Assembly: GCA_012523775.1 (NCBI GenBank) | Contig: JAAYTK010000083.1 | Coordinates: forward strand, 1-57,903 | DNA from: Clostridiales bacterium | GTDB taxonomy: Bacteria > Bacillota > Clostridia > Lachnospirales > Lachnospiraceae | DNA length: 57,903 bases | Direction: 5' to 3' | Shown here: one piece after another, positions 39,107-57,899 of the stretch | How positions within the stretch are numbered: the first letter of the stretch is position 1 | Layout: every line of letters begins with the position of its first letter | Notes under the pieces: generated by a model | Database searches by the model: none | The model's input: the letters and a program-made list of their open reading frames with translations, nothing else | Told to the model about the DNA's origin: nothing | Made by a program: the position numbers and the translations under genes

Positions 39107-39383
39107 ATAAAAAACTCCCGTCTTTAATATTTAAAGACGAGAGAACTTCCCGTGGTACCACTTTAATTTACTTATGTCTTGCGATCATAAGCCTCAGTCG
39201 CTGCAAATACAGCCAAGCATGATAACGGATGCCGCCGTCATAGCCTAAGAATTAATTCCTCGGTATGCCGCTCCAAGACCATCTTCGTCAGCTTCTGCAA
39301 ATCTCCCCTTCTCAGCTACCGGGGTTCTCTGTCGACTGTTCCACTGATTACTCTTCTCTTCATAGCTTTTTTCGTTATGATTA
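39107..39383 (-). promoter_or_regulatory. T-box riboswitch for tRNA-Met upstream of metG
   Basis: On the minus strand the conserved T-box core A-A-A-G-T-G-G-T-A-C-C-A-C-G-G-G-A-A-G lies at 39146-39164. It is followed by a terminator hairpin (arms 39115-39127 and 39131-39143) and a run of six T. Upstream are the AG-rich Stem I signature G-A-G-A-A and a G-A-A-G-A-T-G-G segment (about 39277-39284) whose ATG is the likely specifier codon for methionine. Readthrough occurs when the NCCA end of uncharged tRNA pairs with the T-box. Confidence 0.9.
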
Positions 39384-46711: not shown

Positions 46712-47512
46712 TTATACTCCAAAGCCAAAAAGCATTCGGTTCTTTCCTGGTTTTTTCTTATCCTTACTATCCTTCTTTATGTCCTCGTTATCCTCTTTGT
46801 TCTGCTCCTCATCTACAATTGTTCCGAAGGATTCCACCGCATATGATTTGTATATTCCTTCACTATTAAAATCCTTTGACTGCTGCTCTGAATATTTTTG
46901 AATGTCTTCATTTATTGAAAGCATTTTTTTATCTAAGTATGAAACCAGCTCCGAGCATTCCCTCAGTTCTCTTCTAATATGGTCCGGTGCATTTCCTTCA
47001 AACTTATAATAAATCTTGTGCTCCAGGCTTGCCCAAAAATCCATGGCTATTGTTCTTATCTGTATCTCAACCTTAGTATCTATGGTAATATTAGACAGAC
47101 AAACAGGTATGGCAACAATCATATGATAACTTGTATACCCATTCGGTTTTGGGTTGGCGATATAATCTTTTATTTTTAACACCTTTATGTCCTTTTGTGA
47201 GGATATCAAGTCGGCAATTCGGTAAATATCTGATGTAAAGGAGCAGATGATTCTAATACCTGCAACATCATTAACAAATTTTATAATATTATCAACGGTC
47301 AATTCTTTATTATATTGTCTTAATTTTTTTGCAATGCTTTGCGGAGTCTTAAGTCTGGACTTAATATGCTCTATGGGGTTATATTGATGCGTCAGTTTAA
47401 GCTCATTATTAAGTATTTCCAGTTTTGTGTTTATTTGTTTCAATGCCGCATCATATAGTAATAGAACGTGGCTCCACTCCTCCGCTTTATTATACATTAT
47501 AGGTAGTTCCAT
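46712..47512 (-). CDS. Small alarmone synthetase (RelA/SpoT domain, RelQ/YjbM-like)
   Basis: A 266-residue protein with a (p)ppGpp synthetase domain and no HD hydrolase, TGS or ACT domain. Key parts are I-K-S-R-L-K-T-P-Q-S-I-A-K-K-L, the catalytic-strand region V-N-D-V-A-G-I-R-I-I-C-S-F near residue 90, G-Y-T-S-Y-H and V-E-I-Q-I-R-T-I-A-M-D-F-W-A-S-L-E-H-K. It transfers pyrophosphate from ATP to GTP or GDP. After the domain there is a charged C-terminal tail of about 50 residues, ending K-P-G-K-N-R-M-L-F-G-F-G-V, which is longer than usual. AAAGGTTGTGA is a weak ribosome binding site. Confidence 0.88.
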   Translation of the reverse strand: MELPIMYNKAEEWSHVLLLYDAALKQINTKLEILNNELKLTHQYNPIEHIKSRLKTPQSIAKKLRQYNKELTVDNIIKFVNDVAGIRIICSFTSDIYRIADLISSQKDIKVLKIKDYIANPKPNGYTSYHMIVAIPVCLSNITIDTKVEIQIRTIAMDFWASLEHKIYYKFEGNAPDHIRRELRECSELVSYLDKKMLSINEDIQKYSEQQSKDFNSEGIYKSYAVESFGTIVDEEQNKEDNEDIKKDSKDKKKPGKNRMLFGFGV

Positions 47513-47820
47513 TCAATCACAACCTTTGCTGATGTATAGTCAAACCGCACAAAATTTTCAGTCATAGTCGACCCAATATGTACAGTATAACATATAATTA
47601 TGAACAAAGATTGAAGATTGAAAATTTTAATTAAAAGTTAATAATATCGTTATTATTTTATTTATTTTAAGCACCTACACTGGCAGCTATCACAATATTA
47701 ACAATTGAAATTGTAATTATAGCAATAATGGAATAAATTATACGTTTTATTATCATATTGAGGTTGGTATAGTTAATCCTCTGGCATATTACAATATTTA
47801 AAATAATTTGAAATTTATTA
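47513..47820. other. AT-rich intergenic region, no gene seen
   Basis: About 300 bases between the divergent alarmone synthetase and the ABC exporter leader. It is AT-rich, with no open frame of note and no clear hairpin. The promoter for the alarmone synthetase must lie here, but I cannot point to a convincing one. Confidence 0.6.
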
Positions 47821-47849
47821 TTGACAATAGCAATTCTTACATATATAAT
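47821..47849 (+). promoter_or_regulatory. Near-perfect sigma-A promoter of the ABC exporter leader
   Basis: TTGACA (47821-47826), a 17-base spacer and TATAAT (47844-47849). The transcript would begin near 47857, giving a leader of about 305 bases before the first ABC gene. Such a strong promoter is consistent with control after initiation. Confidence 0.88.
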
Positions 47850-47884
47850 GTTGGCAGACTATTACAGAAAGTGAGGTAAAACAT

Positions 47885-47995
47885 ATGACTTTATTATTAG
47901 CTAGAAATCAAATCGGTACAAAACATTTTAACGCTATAGCTATGTCCTTATGTAGAAATACCTCATGGAACTGTAAGAATCGAATTCGTTCATAA
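47885..47995 (+). CDS. Leader peptide ORF upstream of the ABC exporter
   Basis: A 36-codon ORF, M-T-L-L-L-A-R-N-Q-I-G-T-K-H-F at the start and S-W-N-C-K-N-R-I-R-S at the end. GTGAGG lies eight bases before the ATG. Codons 24-28 (47954-47968) overlap the antiterminator segment, and the terminator follows 68 bases after the stop. The arrangement suggests a regulatory leader peptide like BmrB of Bacillus subtilis, with no sequence relation that I can see. A secreted peptide exported by the transporter is an alternative, but no processing enzymes are encoded. Confidence 0.72.
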   Translation: MTLLLARNQIGTKHFNAIAMSLCRNTSWNCKNRIRS

Positions 47996-48096
47996 GTTAT
48001 CCAATCCAACCCTGCTGCCTTTGGAAAGGATTAACTAAAACAATCCGGATTTTTGCTTGTTTGCCGTGGTATTTCTGCCACGGCTTATTTTATTTT
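47954..48096 (+). promoter_or_regulatory. Attenuator: antiterminator and terminator pair
   Basis: The terminator has arms GCCGTGG (48063-48069) and CCACGGC (48078-48084), an 8-base loop and the tail TTATTTTATTTT. Within the leader ORF, AGAAATACC (47954-47962) is exactly complementary to GGTATTTCT (48068-48076), which includes part of the left arm and the loop. After a 2-base bulge, ATGG (47965-47968) pairs with CCGT (48064-48067, one G-U). The antiterminator would have 13 pairs and exclude the terminator. The remaining 66 bases up to 48162 precede the first ABC gene. Confidence 0.8.
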
Positions 48097-48162
48097 AAGC
48101 TTTAGCCCGGTTTTTGACTACCGAACGTAATGCATCTAGGGAATGCAAGAAATGGAGGAGTA

Positions 48163-49932
48163 ATGAATAAACTGTCTTACTATTTTAAGAAATATTGGTA
48201 TGCGTATGCATTTGCACTTTTTTGTACTGTGGTTTCAGTCATTATGGATATGGTTTCTCCACAGATTACAAAGCGTATTATAGATCAGGTAATAATCGGT
48301 GGCGAGGTGGAATTGCTTACCTCTCTATTATTAATGATTCTGTTCATTGGATTTGGAAGGGCTATATTTGCCTATTTCAAGGAACTGGTTTTTGATACGG
48401 TTAGTTCAAAAATAGCTTCAAAGCTAAGAAAACGATTGTTTACCCATATTCAGGGTCTGTCGATCAGCTTTTTTGATGAGAACAATACCGGAGAGCTTAT
48501 GTCAAGAGTAAAGGATGATGTGGATAGAATCTGGGCTGCTGCCGGATATGTCAGCATGCTTATCTTCGAGGTAATCATCCATACCGGAATTGCATTGTTT
48601 TTTATGTATAGACTAAGTCCCGGCCTGGCAATTATACCGACAATTGTGCTGCCCGTCGTAGCAGGTCTTGCGATTCTGATGGAGAATAAGCTGGGTAAAA
48701 TATATGAGCAAATCAGCGAACAAAACGCCAAGCTAAATACCGTCGCACAGGAGAATCTTTCCGGTGTTCGTACGGTTAAATCCTTTGCAAGAGAAAAATT
48801 TGAGATAAAGAAATTCCTGTCTCATAATAAGCAGTATTATGATTTGAATATGAAGCAGTCCAAGGTATTTATAAAGCTTTATCCTTATTTTCAGCTGATT
48901 ACAAAGCTTCTCCCTATGATAGTAATTTTATTTGGGGGATATAAGGTTATAAATGGCGATATTACTCTTGGAACCTTAGGCGCCTTTACCGAGTACTCTA
49001 TGAACATAGTATGGCCTATGGAAATGCTGGGTTGGCTTTCAAACGATTTGGCCGCAGCGTTTGCTTCCTATAAGAGAATTAAAAAGATATTCGCTCAAAA
49101 ACCTGTAATAATCGAGTCTGACAACCCTGTTATTTTGGATGAGGTTCAGGGCTCGGTAGAATTCGATAAGGTGTCATTGACTATTAATGATAAAAAAATT
49201 CTCTCGGATATTAGCTTTAAGCTGCCGGCAGGTAAAACCATCGGTATAATGGGTGCCACAGGCACAGGAAAAACATCAATCGTTAATATTTTACAACGGT
49301 TTTATGATGTGTCGGAGGGAGAAATTCGGCTGGACGGTGTTAATATTAAGGATTTAACCTTAAAGCAGCTTAGGGGAAGCATATCCCTCGTTATGCAGGA
49401 TGTTTTCCTGTTCTCTGATACAATAAACGAAAACGTTAAATTAGGAAACAGAGACCGAATTATACAGGATGAGGTGATTAAAGCGGCCAAATATTCACAG
49501 GCAAGTGAATTTATCGACAAGATGGATGACCGCTATGAAACAATTATCGGAGAACGTGGAGTCGGACTGTCCGGCGGTCAAAAGCAGAGAATCAGTATTG
49601 CCAGAGCCTTAGCTAAGAAGGCACCCATACTTATACTGGATGATTCTACTTCTGCTCTCGATATGGAAACAGAGCATTTAATACAAAAATCACTGTCTCA
49701 GATTGATTCCACTAAAATAATAATTGCCCACAGAATATCAGCTGTAAGAAATGCCGATGAAATTATTATTCTGGAGGACGGTAAGATCACTGAGCGGGGA
49801 ACACATGAAACTCTCCTTAAGGAGAAAGGATATTACTATCAGACCTACTTAGCACAGTACGGTGAATATTCTTCGAATCACAGCTTATCCCGTACCGGAT
49901 CTGATGACAGGGAGGTGGCCATATGTCAATAA
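48163..49932 (+). CDS. Heterodimeric ABC exporter half with degenerate site (BmrC/YheI-like)
   Basis: A 589-residue half-transporter with six membrane helices (residues 1-310) and an ATPase domain. Walker A is G-A-T-G-T-G-K-T-S, the signature L-S-G-G-Q-K-Q-R, and Walker B I-L-I-L-D-D-S-T, where the catalytic Glu is replaced by Asp. This combination marks the degenerate-site partner of heterodimeric multidrug exporters such as BmrC. ATG 48163 was chosen because GGAGGAG directly precedes it; the frame extends to 48130 but those starts lack a site. Its stop overlaps the next start by 10 bases. It is controlled by the leader attenuator. Confidence 0.9.
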   Translation: MNKLSYYFKKYWYAYAFALFCTVVSVIMDMVSPQITKRIIDQVIIGGEVELLTSLLLMILFIGFGRAIFAYFKELVFDTVSSKIASKLRKRLFTHIQGLSISFFDENNTGELMSRVKDDVDRIWAAAGYVSMLIFEVIIHTGIALFFMYRLSPGLAIIPTIVLPVVAGLAILMENKLGKIYEQISEQNAKLNTVAQENLSGVRTVKSFAREKFEIKKFLSHNKQYYDLNMKQSKVFIKLYPYFQLITKLLPMIVILFGGYKVINGDITLGTLGAFTEYSMNIVWPMEMLGWLSNDLAAAFASYKRIKKIFAQKPVIIESDNPVILDEVQGSVEFDKVSLTINDKKILSDISFKLPAGKTIGIMGATGTGKTSIVNILQRFYDVSEGEIRLDGVNIKDLTLKQLRGSISLVMQDVFLFSDTINENVKLGNRDRIIQDEVIKAAKYSQASEFIDKMDDRYETIIGERGVGLSGGQKQRISIARALAKKAPILILDDSTSALDMETEHLIQKSLSQIDSTKIIIAHRISAVRNADEIIILEDGKITERGTHETLLKEKGYYYQTYLAQYGEYSSNHSLSRTGSDDREVAICQ

Positions 49933-51698
49933 ATGCAATAAGAGATGACGAGCAAATGAGCTCGGTCAATAAAAAAACCACTATGCTTCGCTTGTTCCGT
50001 TATCTATTAAAATATAGGTTAACAATCGTGATCGTTATTCTGATTATGCTGATAACGGTTGCAATCTCGATAATTAATCCTCTGCTAATTGAACGGGCAA
50101 TTGACGTTCATATAGCCAACAAGGATGTAAGAAATTTAATAATGCTAATCGGTTTTGCCTTAGGAATAAATCTGGTATTTATCATATTGGTAAAAACAAG
50201 AATGTTCCTGATGGCAAAAATGTCAAATGATGTATTGCTTAGAATAAGACAGGAGTTATATACCCACATACAGAAACTCAGCTTTAACTTCTTTGACAGC
50301 AGACCGACGGGAAAAATTCTTGCGAGAATCATAGGGGATGTTAATTCCCTGAAGGATGTGCTTTCCGATAGTGTTACGACACTTATACCGGACTTTGTAA
50401 CTATAAGTGCAGTGGTAATCATAATGCTTCTGAAGAATTGGCGCCTGGCACTGGCATCCTTAGTCAGCCTTCCGCTTATGCTTGGTGGTTTATGGTATAT
50501 CGAAACAAGGGCCCATTTAAGATGGCGTATTCATAGGAAAAAAAGCTCGAATCTAAATGCCTTTGTTCATGAGGATCTGTCCGGAATGAGAATTATTCAA
50601 AGCTTTACGGCAGAGGGAGAAACTGAGGAAGATTTTGACCAGCTGCTTGCTGAGCATAGAGGTTCATTTATGAAGGCAGTGGTTATAAACGATGCTTTTT
50701 TCTCCGTAATAGACATCAGCTGGGGACTCGGTACTATCGCTATGTATTATGTGGCAATCAAGCTTATGGGTATAGGGGTGGATAATGTAGGAACCTTAAT
50801 ATCCTTCGGTATATATATTGGTATGTTTTGGCGCCCTATTATGAATTTAAGTAACTTCTATAATAAGCTGATTACTAATATATCAGGTGCAGAGCGAATC
50901 TTTGATATTCTGGACACCAAGCCTGAGATATCGGATGCCTCCCATGTTGAGGAGATGCCCGTTATTAAAGGCGAGGTAACCTTTGATCACGTAACATTTG
51001 CATATGATGGTGATACACAGGTTCTAAACGATGTCAGCTTTACCGTTAAGCCGGGAGAAACCATTGCCTTAGTCGGTCCCACAGGAGCAGGAAAAACAAC
51101 CATCGTTAACCTTATAAGCCGTTTTTATGATGTTCAGCAGGGGAACGTATATATTGATGGCTTGAATGTTAAAGATGTGTCCATCGAGAGCTTAAGAAGA
51201 CAGATGGGAATTATGACTCAGGATAACTTCCTGTTCTCCGGTACGGTAAAGGATAATATAAGATACGGTAAGCTGGATGCTACCGATGAAGAAATTATTG
51301 CGGCAGCTAAGGCCGTCAATGCCCATGATTTTATCATGAAGCTTGAGAACGGCTACGATACGGAGCTAAGGGAAAGAGGCGGCGGGCTCTCTATCGGACA
51401 GCGACAGCTACTGGCCTTTGCCAGAACCATGGTTTCTATGCCAAAAATATTAATACTGGATGAAGCCACATCGAGTATCGATACCCATACCGAGCTGTTG
51501 GTTCAGCGGGGCATTGAGGCGTTGCTTAAGGGTCGTACATCATTTGTAATCGCCCATAGGCTGTCTACAATAAGTAAGGCGGACCGTATATTTGTAATCG
51601 ACCAAGGAAAGATATTGGAGGAAGGCAACTCCGAAGAACTCCTTGCAAAAAAAGGTCTGTATTACGACCTATACATGGCACAGTTTAAGAATATATAG
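49923..51698 (+). CDS. Heterodimeric ABC exporter half with catalytic Glu (BmrD/YheH-like)
   Basis: A 591-residue half-transporter with six membrane helices in the first 330 residues and an ATPase domain. Walker A is G-P-T-G-A-G-K-T-T, the signature L-S-I-G-Q-R-Q-L (altered from LSGGQ) and Walker B I-L-I-L-D-E-A-T with the catalytic Glu. It complements the preceding subunit, giving one consensus and one degenerate ATP site, as in BmrCD. Substrates of such pumps are drugs or lipids; the actual one is unknown. GGAGG lies seven bases before the ATG and the genes overlap by 10 bases, so translation is coupled. A terminator follows at 51723. Confidence 0.92.
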   Translation: MSINAIRDDEQMSSVNKKTTMLRLFRYLLKYRLTIVIVILIMLITVAISIINPLLIERAIDVHIANKDVRNLIMLIGFALGINLVFIILVKTRMFLMAKMSNDVLLRIRQELYTHIQKLSFNFFDSRPTGKILARIIGDVNSLKDVLSDSVTTLIPDFVTISAVVIIMLLKNWRLALASLVSLPLMLGGLWYIETRAHLRWRIHRKKSSNLNAFVHEDLSGMRIIQSFTAEGETEEDFDQLLAEHRGSFMKAVVINDAFFSVIDISWGLGTIAMYYVAIKLMGIGVDNVGTLISFGIYIGMFWRPIMNLSNFYNKLITNISGAERIFDILDTKPEISDASHVEEMPVIKGEVTFDHVTFAYDGDTQVLNDVSFTVKPGETIALVGPTGAGKTTIVNLISRFYDVQQGNVYIDGLNVKDVSIESLRRQMGIMTQDNFLFSGTVKDNIRYGKLDATDEEIIAAAKAVNAHDFIMKLENGYDTELRERGGGLSIGQRQLLAFARTMVSMPKILILDEATSSIDTHTELLVQRGIEALLKGRTSFVIAHRLSTISKADRIFVIDQGKILEEGNSEELLAKKGLYYDLYMAQFKNI

Positions 51699-51722
51699 TT
51701 GTGTCTATGAATTAACTTAAGG

Positions 51723-51757
51723 GACTGTTTCAAAATAACATTTTGAAACAGTCTTTT
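51723..51757. terminator. Bidirectional terminator after the ABC exporter operon
   Basis: Perfect 14-base arms at 51723-51736 and 51740-51753 around the loop AAC, followed by TTTT. The two-component system's last gene ends at 51756, so this hairpin serves both convergent operons. Confidence 0.88.
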
Positions 51758-53186
51758 AAAATCTTCTTTTTGGTATGGTTACTATAAAACTGGTACCCTT
51801 AGTAAACTGGGTACGGACCTTTATTTTGCCGGTATGTGCAAGAATGATTAGCTTTGCCAGGGAAAGCCCTAGCCCGTGACCGCTGATATTTTGACTTCTT
51901 ACATGCTCGGATCTGTAAAATCTGTCAAATATATGCTCCACATCATTTCTGGTCATGCCTACACCAGTATCTTGGACTGTAATAACACAATCTCCCTTAT
52001 GGTTTTGACATAGGATCGTAACCTCATCACCATCGTTAGAATACTTAATTGCATTATCTATAAATATCCGAATGGCCTGCTTCAATGCCTGCTGATCACC
52101 ATATACCTCTACATCCTCCAGTATTGGGCTGTTAATAATACGGTTTTCTGTAACCAGTCTGGTTTCCTTAACCATATCCTCAACCATAGGCCTCATATTG
52201 AATCTCTTCTTATGAAGCTTTAAGGTCTTTTTATCATGTCTTGATAAGAAAAGAAGCTTTTCCACAAGGTCCTGCATCGCACGGGCTTCATTTTGTATGG
52301 CTTCTATGGATTCCTCCAGTACCTCTTTATTGGTGGAGCCCCAGCGATCCAGCATATTTGCATATCCCTGGATTACCGCAATCGGTGTCCTAAGCTCATG
52401 GGAGGCATCCGATACAAATTGCTTCTGACTTTCATAAGAGGTTTCTATTCTATCGAGCATCTCATTAATAACATTTGCCAAATCCTTCAGTTCATTCTGA
52501 GTTCCGGCCACATTCAGCCTTGCACTATGTAGGTTATGGGCGCTCATGCGGCTTGCGGTTGCTGACATTATCTGAAGCGGTTCGAACAGCTTCTCATCGC
52601 TCTTTCTTCCTTTCTTAATAATAAGAGTAACTATGACAATATAAAGGATAATCAGCTTCCATAGCATTGACAGAAAGCTTTTATAACTACCTGTTAAATC
52701 ATATTGAAAGATTACCTGATAAGGTTCCTCATCAACCGAAAACTCTATTTCCTCATTAACAACCAATATATGATTCTCGCTTTTTCTGTCAAAATGAATC
52801 CCATGAAAGAATGCCTTATCGGATGTTGGGTGATATGCTATGTCGTTATAAACTTCTTCTCCTGTGTCAGTATGTTCTATTTTCATGGAAAGGCCCTGCA
52901 TAAAATAAGGATTAACATATAAGCTTCCTTCTGACTCACTGATGGAAGCTATTATGTCATCGGCCATCTTGCTGTAACCTTCTTTTTCCGTATACATATA
53001 TATAAGAAAGAGTCCGATTATAAGTAAAATCCCATGGGTTATAAGCAGCTTGAGATATCCCATTGAAATCCGAAACAGAATAGACAGCCTCAAGCTATTC
53101 AAGAATGCCAATCTCTTATTTCGAATAGGGAGAATTATTTTTACCAATGTCCGACGTATAAATTCTAAAAAATTATCCCAGCTCAT
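51756..53186 (-). CDS. Membrane sensor histidine kinase (ArlS/CusS-like)
   Basis: A 476-residue kinase. Two membrane helices lie near residues 46-66 and 180-200, flanking an extracytoplasmic sensor of about 110 residues. A HAMP-like linker (about 205-258) follows, then a HisKA domain with S-D-A-S-H-E-L-R-T-P-I-A-V-I and a HATPase with N-A-I-K-Y-S, D-T-G-V-G-M and G-H-G-L-G-L-S-L. It is the partner of the response regulator encoded upstream. The N-terminus is preceded by an extra 40 cytoplasmic residues. It is convergent with the ABC exporter genes, which makes those genes plausible but unproven targets. Confidence 0.9.
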   Translation of the reverse strand: MSWDNFLEFIRRTLVKIILPIRNKRLAFLNSLRLSILFRISMGYLKLLITHGILLIIGLFLIYMYTEKEGYSKMADDIIASISESEGSLYVNPYFMQGLSMKIEHTDTGEEVYNDIAYHPTSDKAFFHGIHFDRKSENHILVVNEEIEFSVDEEPYQVIFQYDLTGSYKSFLSMLWKLIILYIVIVTLIIKKGRKSDEKLFEPLQIMSATASRMSAHNLHSARLNVAGTQNELKDLANVINEMLDRIETSYESQKQFVSDASHELRTPIAVIQGYANMLDRWGSTNKEVLEESIEAIQNEARAMQDLVEKLLFLSRHDKKTLKLHKKRFNMRPMVEDMVKETRLVTENRIINSPILEDVEVYGDQQALKQAIRIFIDNAIKYSNDGDEVTILCQNHKGDCVITVQDTGVGMTRNDVEHIFDRFYRSEHVRSQNISGHGLGLSLAKLIILAHTGKIKVRTQFTKGTSFIVTIPKRRF

Positions 53187-53223
53187 ATTATCCCCTTTTG
53201 TCTAAGCATATAAATGATGTGTT

Positions 53224-53901
53224 TTAATCCTTAATAATATAGCCTACTCCTCGAACTGTTGAAATCAGATGAACGCCATATTTCTCATCTATTTTCTGTC
53301 TTAAATATCTTATATATACATCTACAACATTTGTATCTCCAAAATATTCATAGTCCCATACATGATTCAGAAGCTGTTCTCTGCTAAGAACGATATTCTT
53401 ATTACGTATCATGTATTCAAGGAGTTCATATTCCTTCTTCGTTAAGGTCAGTTCGTCCTCTCCATAATAAGCGCTTCTGCTTGCGAGATTTAGTTTTAAT
53501 TTCCCTATTTCTAAGTTTTCAAGCTTCGGCTCCTTCTGATTCTTCTTTCTGTTGAGAGCCACACGGATTCTTGCAAGCAATTCTTCAATCGCAAAAGGCT
53601 TAGTCATATAATCATCCGCTCCGGTGTCAAGACCTGCCACCTTATCTGACACATCATCCTTGGCTGTAAGCATTATAATGGGAACCTGGGATTCCAGACG
53701 AATTCTGCGGCATACTTCAATACCGTTTATCCCTGGAAGCATAATATCCAATATTACCAAATCCACATTCTCCTTCAGGGCCTTCTCCAAACCCTGTCTG
53801 CCTTCGCCGGCTATCAGTACTTCGTATCCCTCATGCTTCAACTCTAATTCTAAAAACCTGGCTATTTTTAGCTCATCCTCTATAATTAAAATCTTCGCCA
53901 C
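53224..53901 (-). CDS. OmpR-family response regulator (ArlR-like)
   Basis: A 225-residue protein. The receiver domain has E-D-E near residue 8, the phosphoacceptor Asp in L-V-I-L-D-I-M-L-P (Asp52), T-A-K-D and K-P-F. A winged-helix DNA-binding domain follows from about residue 130 (L-T-K-K-E-Y-E-L-L, H-V-W-D-Y-E-Y, V-D-V-Y-I-R-Y-L-R-Q-K-I, T-V-R-G-V-G-Y). The start is GTG 53901 behind GGGAGGG. It is the first gene of the two-gene operon with its own sigma-A promoter at 53940. Its targets cannot be told from the window. Confidence 0.92.
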   Translation of the reverse strand: MAKILIIEDELKIARFLELELKHEGYEVLIAGEGRQGLEKALKENVDLVILDIMLPGINGIEVCRRIRLESQVPIIMLTAKDDVSDKVAGLDTGADDYMTKPFAIEELLARIRVALNRKKNQKEPKLENLEIGKLKLNLASRSAYYGEDELTLTKKEYELLEYMIRNKNIVLSREQLLNHVWDYEYFGDTNVVDVYIRYLRQKIDEKYGVHLISTVRGVGYIIKD

Positions 53902-57103: not shown

Positions 57104-57176
57104 TGAGACATCGGGGACTCGAACCCCGGACACCTTGATTAAAAGTCAAGTGCTCTACCGCCTGAGCTAATGTCCC
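57104..57176 (-). tRNA. tRNA-Lys (UUU)
   Basis: A 73-base cloverleaf. Acceptor GGGACAT pairs with ATGTCTC (one G-U). The anticodon loop CTTTTAA gives UUU. The discriminator is A and no CCA is encoded. It is the last gene of the tRNA cluster. Confidence 0.95.
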
Positions 57177-57195
57177 CTTTAATATAATATTAAAA

Positions 57196-57268
<73 letters not shown>

Positions 57269-57306
57269 ACGGTATACTTCGTCTCTTAATGACGCAAATA
57301 ATTGAA

Positions 57307-57380
<74 letters not shown>

Positions 57381-57448
57381 ATATTATTTTGTTCGCATAC
57401 CATATTGCTAAGCGGCGAACTTATATATATTATATGGCTTACGCCAAA

Positions 57449-57530
57449 TGGATGGGGAAGGATTCGAACCTTCGAAAGCATCGCTAACAGATTTACAGTC
57501 TGCCCCCTTTGGCCACTCGGGAACCCATCC
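57449..57530 (-). tRNA. tRNA-Tyr (GUA)
   Basis: An 82-base tRNA with the long variable arm typical of bacterial tRNA-Tyr. Acceptor GGATGGG pairs with CCCATCC. The anticodon loop CTGTAAA gives GUA. Confidence 0.95.
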
Positions 57531-57561
57531 ATATAATATCAACAATCGAGTCTTTGTTGAA

Positions 57562-57634
57562 AGCCGATGATCGGACTCGAACCGATAACCTGCTGATTAC
57601 AAGTCAGCTGCTCTGCCAATTGAGCCACATCGGC
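57562..57634 (-). tRNA. tRNA-Thr (UGU)
   Basis: A 73-base cloverleaf. Acceptor GCCGATG pairs with CATCGGC. The anticodon loop CTTGTAA gives UGU. The discriminator is T. Confidence 0.95.
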
Positions 57635-57652
57635 ATTTCATTTTAAAATCAA

Positions 57653-57725
57653 TGGGACCTATAGGGCTCGAACCTATGACCCCCTGCTTGTAAGGCAGGT
57701 GCTCTCCCAGCTGAGCTAAGATCCC
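57653..57725 (-). tRNA. tRNA-Val (UAC)
   Basis: A 73-base cloverleaf. Acceptor GGGATCT pairs with AGGTCCC (one T-G). The anticodon loop CTTACAA gives UAC. The discriminator is A. Confidence 0.95.
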
Positions 57726-57825
57726 TTGGGATTATTATGTACTATATCATATATTTCATTCCTTGAAATATATGTATCTTGTCACATAATATAAATTTAT
57801 ATAACAATTAATTTTAATTGTAAAA

Positions 57826-57899
57826 CGACCCAGAAGGGACTCGAACCCTCGACCTCCGCCGTGACAGGGCGGCGCTCTAACCAACTGAGCCACTGGGCC
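57826..57899 (-). tRNA. tRNA-Asp (GUC)
   Basis: A 74-base cloverleaf. Acceptor GGCCCAG pairs with CTGGGTC. The anticodon loop CTGTCAC gives GUC. The discriminator is G. It is the first tRNA visible; the operon promoter and possibly more tRNAs lie beyond the window end. Confidence 0.94.

Follow-up and report, generated by a model that had tools for sequence, protein, structure and literature searches.

A candidate ribosome-sensing transcription attenuator with three alternative helices upstream of an ABC exporter pair in Lachnospiraceae

The window, meaning the full stretch of 57,903 nucleotides (nt) analysed here (contig JAAYTK010000083.1, positions 1-57,903, assembly GCA_012523775.1, Clostridiales bacterium), carries two consecutive genes of ATP-binding cassette (ABC) half-exporters preceded by a leader with the parts of a putative transcription attenuator. 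The genome from which it derives comprises 2.26 Mb in 110 contigs and is 99 percent complete. Components of the leader and of the operon, with ribosome binding site and open reading frame abbreviated as RBS and ORF, are the following:

47821-47849, plus strand: sigma-70-type promoter, TTGACA-17-TATAAT, matching the consensus in 12 of 12 positions
47871-47878, plus strand: segment 1, the leader RBS GTGAGGTA, predicted to double as anti-antiterminator strand; matched partner of segment 2
47885-47995, plus strand: leader ORF of 36 codons (MTLLLARNQIGTKHFNAIAMSLCRNTSWNCKNRIRS)
47954-47968, plus strand: segment 2, AGAAATACCTCATGG, inside the leader ORF; its partner is the RBS (via 47959-47966) or the left arm and loop of the terminator
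48063-48071, plus strand: segment 3, terminator left arm, an RBS look-alike (GTGGTA compared with GAGGTA)
48068-48076, plus strand: 3' strand of the putative antiterminator, spanning the loop together with the last part of the left arm and the first right-arm base; the native partner beats swapped ones
48076-48096, plus strand: segment 4, terminator right arm and T-rich tail; the stem covaries
48163-49932, plus strand: ABC half-exporter 1 (ABC1), with the degenerate Walker B motif LILDD and the signature LSGGQ; an alternative in-frame start is possible at 48130
49923-51698, plus strand: ABC half-exporter 2 (ABC2), with Walker B LILDE and the degenerate signature LSIGQ; its start overlaps the end of ABC1
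51717-51759, plus strand: terminator-like hairpin past the two-gene operon

An earlier reading of the window (the original prediction) had described a consensus promoter, a 36-codon ORF with its own RBS, an intrinsic terminator and complementarity between the ORF and the terminator, and all four are found at these positions. The ORF start is preceded by AAGTGAGGT, and the hairpin at 48063-48084, with nine pairs (six of them G-C) and a four-base loop, is followed by an interrupted T tract. Base for base, AGAAATACC (47954-47962) is the exact complement of GGTATTTCT (48068-48076), and beyond a 2-base bulge four more pairs join 47965-47968 with 48064-48067. The terminator begins 67 nt past the leader stop codon and segment 1 lies 5' of the leader start. 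In addition, we observed a helix missed by the original prediction, in which the RBS at 47871-47878 pairs with TACCTCAT (47959-47966) in segment 2, extended in the minimum-energy fold by six outer pairs, TTACAG with CTGTAA. Because segment 2 can pair with the RBS as well, the RBS would act as an anti-antiterminator. The two partners of segment 2 are alike, GAGGTA in the RBS and GTGGTA in the terminator left arm of the window, and in one relative, L050, GGTAATTT is present at both places. Hereafter the three alternative helices are denoted 1:2 (RBS with segment 2), 2:3 (segment 2 with the terminator left arm and loop, the antiterminator) and 3:4 (the terminator).

Folding of a transcript that ends within the right arm (47856-48080) gave the antiterminator as the minimum-energy structure (z -1.59), and folding of a longer one (47856-48104) gave the terminator (z -2.55). 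When the ORF was shuffled with its dinucleotides preserved, a Watson-Crick run of nine with the terminator arose in 5 of 2000 cases; with G-U pairs allowed the same length was attained in 406 of 2000, so the evidence from this single sequence is modest. For the RBS and segment 2, the window has a 7-base Watson-Crick run (77 of 2000 shuffles) or a run of 8 with G-U pairs (534 of 2000). Judged from the window by itself, support for the RBS pairing is weak, and the stronger support for the pairings comes from comparison across relatives.

A contig search with ABC1 returned 133 confirmed relatives, and the best 80 of these 133 loci were used. In an automatic search of 81 regions (the 80 loci and the window), RBS, ORF, terminator and anti-RBS segment were detected in 70, 9 regions lacked this set, and 2 were too short. 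Most of the 25 upstream regions that were printed show an RBS and a start codon, followed by N-terminal codons that differ between loci, by a (T)ACCTC segment and by a G+C-rich hairpin with a T tail; in L029 and L039 the leader is not whole within the printed 400 bases. Promoters comparable to that of the window precede many of the printed leaders, as judged by eye. The same procedure was applied to control genes, namely 212 further ORFs from these loci, each 200 codons or longer, and the window and the two short loci were excluded from the comparison. A leader ORF with a downstream terminator was present in 69 of 78 regions 5' of ABC1 relatives compared with 2 of 212 controls, in agreement with the earlier placement of an attenuator upstream of the exporter. 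Furthermore, when segment 2 was picked solely by its complementarity to the RBS (duplex of -9 kcal/mol or better), it paired best of all leader windows with the left arm and loop of the terminator in 35 of 78 regions, which was the case in none of the 212 controls. When the energy limit was dropped, it was the best terminator partner in 37 of 70.

Constraint on the pairings was assessed by exchanging partners among 21 clusters of loci (75 percent ABC1 identity) in 20000 permutations. Native RBS/segment 2 pairs averaged -12.37 kcal/mol compared with -10.79 for permuted ones, and no permutation was as good. The corresponding values for segment 2 and the terminator were -7.33 and -6.47 kcal/mol (221 of 20000 as good), and the control pair of RBS and terminator showed no effect (-4.43 native, -4.52 permuted; 13249 of 20000). 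The 2:3 helix was also evaluated at fixed anchors, with segment 2 positioned by its complementarity to the RBS and the terminator by its last GG, in a set of 74 leaders. This set was obtained from 99 loci by dropping 21 that lack the strict RBS/segment motif and 4 with no terminator option; L115 was left out. Since L059 and L119 share an identical leader peptide, the 74 leaders are not all independent. Their 50 distinct haplotypes pair at 4.58 of 7 positions compared with 4.12 in permuted combinations (standard deviation 0.11; 0 of 20000 as good). With one locus drawn per group from 38 groups, p ranged from 0 to 0.00025; 20 of these groups are ABC1 clusters and each of the other 18 is one locus that was not clustered with the remainder, and for that reason the groups are not fully independent.

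Matched changes are visible within the genus, where L101 pairs GGAAAAACC with GGTTTTTC and the window pairs GAAATACC with GGTATTTC. Across 18 close leaders, pairing amounts to 95.4 percent in helices 1:2 and 3:4, a level of support reached by 0 of 500 shuffles, and to 81.5 percent in helix 2:3, compared with 38-61 percent when its strands are slid. At the level of sequence comparison, the parts, their conservation and the constraints on pairing are established.

To describe the possible effect of a ribosome, the transcript of each of the 74 leaders was folded as far as the approximate position of the terminator loop, with a ribosome footprint of 30 nt placed at defined sites. The mean number of pairs between segment 2 and the terminator was 1.19 with no ribosome, 5.06 and 5.01 with a ribosome at codons 1 and 2, 1.23 at codon 10, and 0.00 with the ribosome on segment 2. 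Compared with the ribosome-free state, a ribosome at codon 1 raised helix 2:3 by more than one pair in 47 of 74 leaders and lowered it that much in none. Among seven leaders folded singly, L022, L030 and L050 switch cleanly at codon 1. In this model, a ribosome on approximately the first codons would on average trigger readthrough, and no ribosome or an advancing one would favour termination.

These results are consistent with a ribosome-sensing transcription attenuator built of three mutually exclusive helices, 1:2, 2:3 and 3:4, to which we assign a probability of about 0.72. With no ribosome on the leader, segment 2 would be held by the leader's RBS, terminator 3:4 would form and the exporter genes would be off. 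A ribosome that has translated through would cover segment 2, and the terminator would again form. A ribosome held on the first few leader codons would instead cover the RBS and free segment 2, which could then pair with the terminator left arm, so that transcription would continue into the ABC pair. We infer that the leader is translated and that the switch runs in this direction in the cell. The original prediction had proposed that stalling in the early codons leaves 47954-47968 free and leads to readthrough. Footprint folding agrees with this on average; the proposal did not mention that the segment would normally be held by the RBS, and the window itself behaves less cleanly than the average leader. 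Its companion statement, that translation through the segment favours termination, accords with the absence of antiterminator pairs when the ribosome sits on segment 2.

Several observations weigh against the proposed attenuator. No leader was detectable in 9 of the 78 relatives. Matched partners of the alternative helices do recur across Lachnospiraceae relatives, and the swap and anchored tests bear out the earlier claim that the antiterminator excludes the terminator, with the alignment of the 18 close leaders as the weak spot: there, the covariation score of helix 2:3 was reached by 46 of 500 shuffles, partly because of a one-base bulge in some relatives. An alignment of 53 leaders, itself fitted to the model structure, shows changes on both sides in 13 of the 17 pairs that make up helices 1:2 and 3:4. 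In the footprint model, 27 of 74 leaders change by at most one pair at codon 1, and L030 forms helix 2:3 at codon 12 as well. The window without a ribosome favours 2:3 over 1:2 (9.14 and 1.58 pairs), and does so also with a ribosome at codons 8-20; L058 behaves in the same way, favouring 2:3 already without a ribosome. L019 responds weakly (1.39 pairs at codon 1, 4.91 at codon 3) and L094 forms no 2:3. With the right arm transcribed, nearly all terminator pairs form in the states shown, the exceptions being the window with a ribosome at codon 1 (4.02 pairs) or codon 3 (6.75). Finally, among the 708 early codons (from codon 2 to about 20) of 38 representative leaders, 107 (15.1 percent) specify asparagine, roughly four times its share in ABC1 (3.75 percent), and the model neither needs this excess nor offers an explanation for it. 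Because equilibrium folding of the window favours 2:3 without a ribosome, default termination would have to rely on 1:2 forming first during transcription. Likewise, with the terminator near complete once its right arm is made, antitermination would have to be kinetic, and the order of folding during transcription must matter.

The asparagine excess raises an alternative in which ribosomes stall at regulatory codons for lack of charged tRNA and the exporter answers starvation. At least one asparagine codon is present in 37 of 38 leaders, and a few leaders allow 2:3 when the ribosome has moved beyond the first codons (to codon 12 in L030, to codons 16-20 in L058). Nevertheless, the codons are scattered with no fixed run (an excess at codon -10 from the anchor is seen in 15 of 38), a ribosome at codon 10 gives on average no antitermination, and none of the identified downstream genes, which encode exporters, an ABC-F-like protein, RsgA, GNAT and RqcH, belongs to asparagine metabolism; we therefore regard this reading as unlikely. 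Relative to shuffled codons, alanine and methionine are also raised in the 38 representatives, and proline, glutamate, tyrosine and aspartate are low; the shortage of glutamate and aspartate may come from avoidance of RBS-like, GA-rich codons. The leader might alternatively encode a nascent peptide that makes the stall drug-specific, as in leaders of the ErmCL or RLR type. It does look like a real ORF, most rsgA-type leaders (described below) share a peptide pattern around Y-x(3)-T-S-V, and the arrest motif RLR occurs in the ORF printed for L046, which is outside the 74-leader set, and in L041, there in an ORF lying farther upstream. RLR was found in 0 of the 74 leaders, however, and peptides vary across this set. 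In five close leaders, the ratio of nonsynonymous to synonymous differences (pN/pS) is 1.10 in codons 2-23, indicating an unconstrained early peptide in exporter leaders, and 0.59 in codons 24-36. Across the 74 leaders, in ORFs of 24-53 codons, segment 2 lies at codon 17-37, 4-21 codons ahead of the stop, and is read in frames 1, 0 and 2 (56, 16 and 2 cases), being translated as ITS, NTS, LPHG and KLP, among others. Since segment 2 is read in three frames among relatives, selection seems to act on the RNA rather than on the peptide, and a peptide-specific arrest is improbable.

The same conservation in RNA would also suit a ligand- or protein-binding switch in which the ORF is incidental. An Rfam search gave no gathering-level match at the leader, the best weak match in 47780-48200 being tsr26 with 26.5 bits against a cut-off of 141, and besides the three helices no compact conserved fold was seen. 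RBS, start codon and open frame are present in 74 of 74 leaders, in a set chosen for having them. Taken together, this makes such a switch very unlikely. It could further be supposed that the RBS/anti-RBS hairpin merely limits leader translation, with a constitutive terminator and incidental complementarity between segment 2 and that terminator. In favour of this, helix 1:2 is stronger and better matched than 2:3 in the swap test, and the 2:3 covariation in close leaders is weak. The partners of 2:3 are nevertheless matched beyond permutation, and segment 2 surpasses every other leader window as terminator partner in the 35 regions mentioned above compared with none of the controls, which leaves little room for an incidental role. 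We thus retain the three-helix attenuator as the preferred interpretation.

Regarding the exporter genes, ABC1 combines a degenerate Walker B motif with a good signature and ABC2 shows the reverse, so that the pair has one degenerate ATP site. We take this to be the pattern of heterodimeric exporters such as TM287/288 and BmrCD. The label BmrCD-like, given by the original prediction, holds for the type of exporter and less well for the closest relative: among the solved structures listed for ABC2, TM288 (E 9.6e-121) is ahead of BmrD (7m33_D, E 1.3e-105), and BmrC is not among the 60 of 186 matches listed for ABC1. All 25 NCBIfam matches listed for each half are under curated cut-offs. ABC1 is 82 percent identical to its counterpart in Herbinix hemicellulosilytica (Lachnospiraceae) and up to 88 percent identical to loci in metagenome-assembled genomes, one of which is labelled Anaerolineaceae. 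The pair is probably a drug exporter, with drugs as the presumed substrate. In a plasmid collection, 142 records match the exporter at E ≤1e-80, all of them with less than 60 percent identity, and no close plasmid copy is present there.

In kind, the proposed system is already known, as ribosome-mediated transcription attenuation of resistance genes. By function, the nearest known system is the bmrB leader of bmrCD in Bacillus subtilis, which has a different layout. In common are a translated leader ORF, a terminator, an antiterminator, a predicted anti-antiterminator and a two-gene ABC exporter; bmrCD is induced by lincomycin, erythromycin and chloramphenicol, and translation of the leader is required (PMC4191407). 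For bmrB, the three predicted structures fall inside the coding region (nt 60-162) and the anti-antiterminator was not assigned a definite role (PMC4191407), whereas here the RBS would be the anti-antiterminator and the terminator lies past the stop codon. Attenuators of the ABC-F genes vmlR, cplR and tiaA/are5sc respond to stalling at the start codon or early codons by lincosamide- or pleuromutilin-type drugs, with antitermination as the outcome (PMC9226507, PMC10201436, PMC12421871). In vmlR the stalling blocks an anti-antiterminator (PMC9226507), and in tiaA/are5sc the RBS of the upstream ORF (uORF) overlaps the antiterminator hairpin (PMC12421871). Their uORFs have 3, 4 or 9 codons, in contrast to the much longer leader ORFs described here, which contain the switching segment, and the Shine-Dalgarno sequence of the vmlR uORF is described as single-stranded (PMC9226507), unlike the leader RBS, which is predicted to pair with segment 2.

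The hflXr/rli80 attenuator of Listeria monocytogenes has an anti-antiterminator and controls an HflX-like factor that gives resistance to lincomycin and erythromycin, thus paralleling the leader-rsgA loci presented below; it differs in having a 14-codon ORF with the RLR motif and a factor that is HflX-like, not RsgA (PMC6310831). In Escherichia coli, the toiL uORF of topAI senses several classes of ribosome-targeting drugs, with start-codon stalls included, and differs in that the RBS of the next gene is unmasked, termination is Rho-dependent and stalls at various uORF sites are effective (PMC12121999). By analogy with vmlR and tiaA/are5sc, the start-stall preference of the model fits drugs that trap initiating or early ribosomes, and we infer that inducers would be translation inhibitors acting on initiating or early-elongating ribosomes, e.g. 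lincosamides and pleuromutilins. Accordingly worded as a prediction, start-trapping inhibitors should induce the exporter and stalls in the middle of the ORF should mostly fail to do so.

Searches for the leader were extended beyond exporter loci. The 36-residue leader peptide matched 17 of 397 family genomes at E ≤0.1, and besides the window solely L004, from the same genus, overlaps a leader found later; a strict triple pattern was found in 1 of 397 genomes. R1, a covariance model built from close leaders, had matches in 21 of 397 family genomes at E ≤0.1. The broader covariance model R2 gave 48 matches in 43 of 387 family genomes at E ≤0.05, covering 40 of 334 genera sampled; over 387 genomes this threshold allows at most about 19 chance matches, E-values are rough, and 32 of the 48 have E ≤0.001. 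The gene that follows was examined for 47 of the 48 R2 matches, G358:C11 being left out; L117 (found by R1 only) and the weak second matches L123-L125 were likewise set aside. In 26 of the 47 the next gene is ABC1 itself or a relative, with 54-83 percent identity in loci other than the window. An RsgA GTPase follows in 8 (L139, L141, L143, L145, L148, L150, L154 and L156, the last behind a 143-codon ORF), and a fusion of a GNAT acetyltransferase with RsgA, about 530 residues long, in 3 (L149, L161 and L162; L120 is the same locus as L149). A GNAT gene and, as judged by eye, a GNAT remnant follow in one case each, other ABC exporters in two, and an ABC-F-like protein (267 bits, under the family cut-off of 380) in one; leaders L157, L160 and L165 stand before the ABC-F-like protein, a 777-codon ABC exporter ORF and a second ABC gene pair. 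In one case (L122 / L164) the leader is followed by a 54-codon ORF and then by RqcH (NFACT_N, 7.6e-111). This 54-codon ORF shares, by eye, a W-A-x-x-E-x-x-Y-N-C pattern with the small ORF after the L106 leader. One further match precedes a small ORF and one is at a contig end. The remaining two of the 47, L152 and L158, have no leader ORF and were judged false, as was the match L170.

For the 11 loci with RsgA or a fusion, E is ≤0.001 in 4 and 0.0011-0.048 in the others; the 7 weaker ones were accepted because of their visible RBS, segment and terminator and the recurring gene. Identity as RsgA is indicated by scores above the cut-off of TIGR00157 (NCBIfam) in 7 of 7 proteins tested and of PF03193 (Pfam) in 11 of 11. 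Since all 11 genomes have a second, stronger RsgA match elsewhere, the leader-linked RsgA is a paralogue; the window's genome and its congener G254 have one strong match each. Pairing in 14 rsgA-type leaders amounts to 96.1 percent for the RBS and terminator helices and to 97.6 percent for the segment/terminator helix; the latter is near-invariant, and its covariation was not beyond shuffles (500 of 500). A class-level search matched 5 of 196 genomes at E ≤0.01: three from the same family, the window's genome included, G465 from another family, and G405, the last judged false. In G465, the minimum-energy fold (z -3.95) joins the RBS GGAGGGTA to a TTACCC stretch of the ORF and also contains a terminator-like hairpin; an ABC exporter gene follows.

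With some reserve, we lean towards the view that these leaders form an attenuator class centred on Lachnospiraceae, with the RBS as anti-antiterminator and a terminator arm that mimics it. The class would read ribosomes stuck at the start and control a regulon for translation stress, made up of ABC exporter pairs, RqcH, an ABC-F-like protein and a second RsgA that stands by itself or is joined to GNAT. One architecture would then extend over the genera matched by R2 in one family and occur at least once outside it, in G465, and its RNA logic, an anti-Shine-Dalgarno segment within a leader ORF combined with an RBS-like terminator arm, is searchable. To our knowledge, drug-inducible attenuators have been described gene by gene, in Bacilli, Listeria, Clostridioides and actinobacteria, and we know of no earlier link of a second RsgA, GNAT-RsgA fusions or RqcH to such attenuation. 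In the open-licence literature, outside which most subscription journals lie, we recognised no paper on a long leader ORF with an internal anti-RBS segment, on an RBS anti-antiterminator with a look-alike arm, or on attenuated RsgA or RqcH. If the class is real, the second RsgA would be an undescribed drug- or stress-induced factor acting on the ribosome, parallel to HflXr.

Surroundings of the operon were also inspected. Genes of a sensor kinase and a response regulator (51756-53901, minus strand) are convergent with the exporter operon, and the hairpin at 51717-51759 lies between them. The divergent neighbour on the other side (46712-47512, minus strand) encodes a protein similar to the small alarmone synthetase YjbM, with a score below the cut-off; 14 of the 15 tested loci carry a relative of it (65-84 percent identity) close to the exporter, the exception being L034. 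Elsewhere in the window, a T-box leader (98.6 bits) is located at 39130-39372, minus strand, and seven tRNA genes are clustered at 57104-57899, minus strand.

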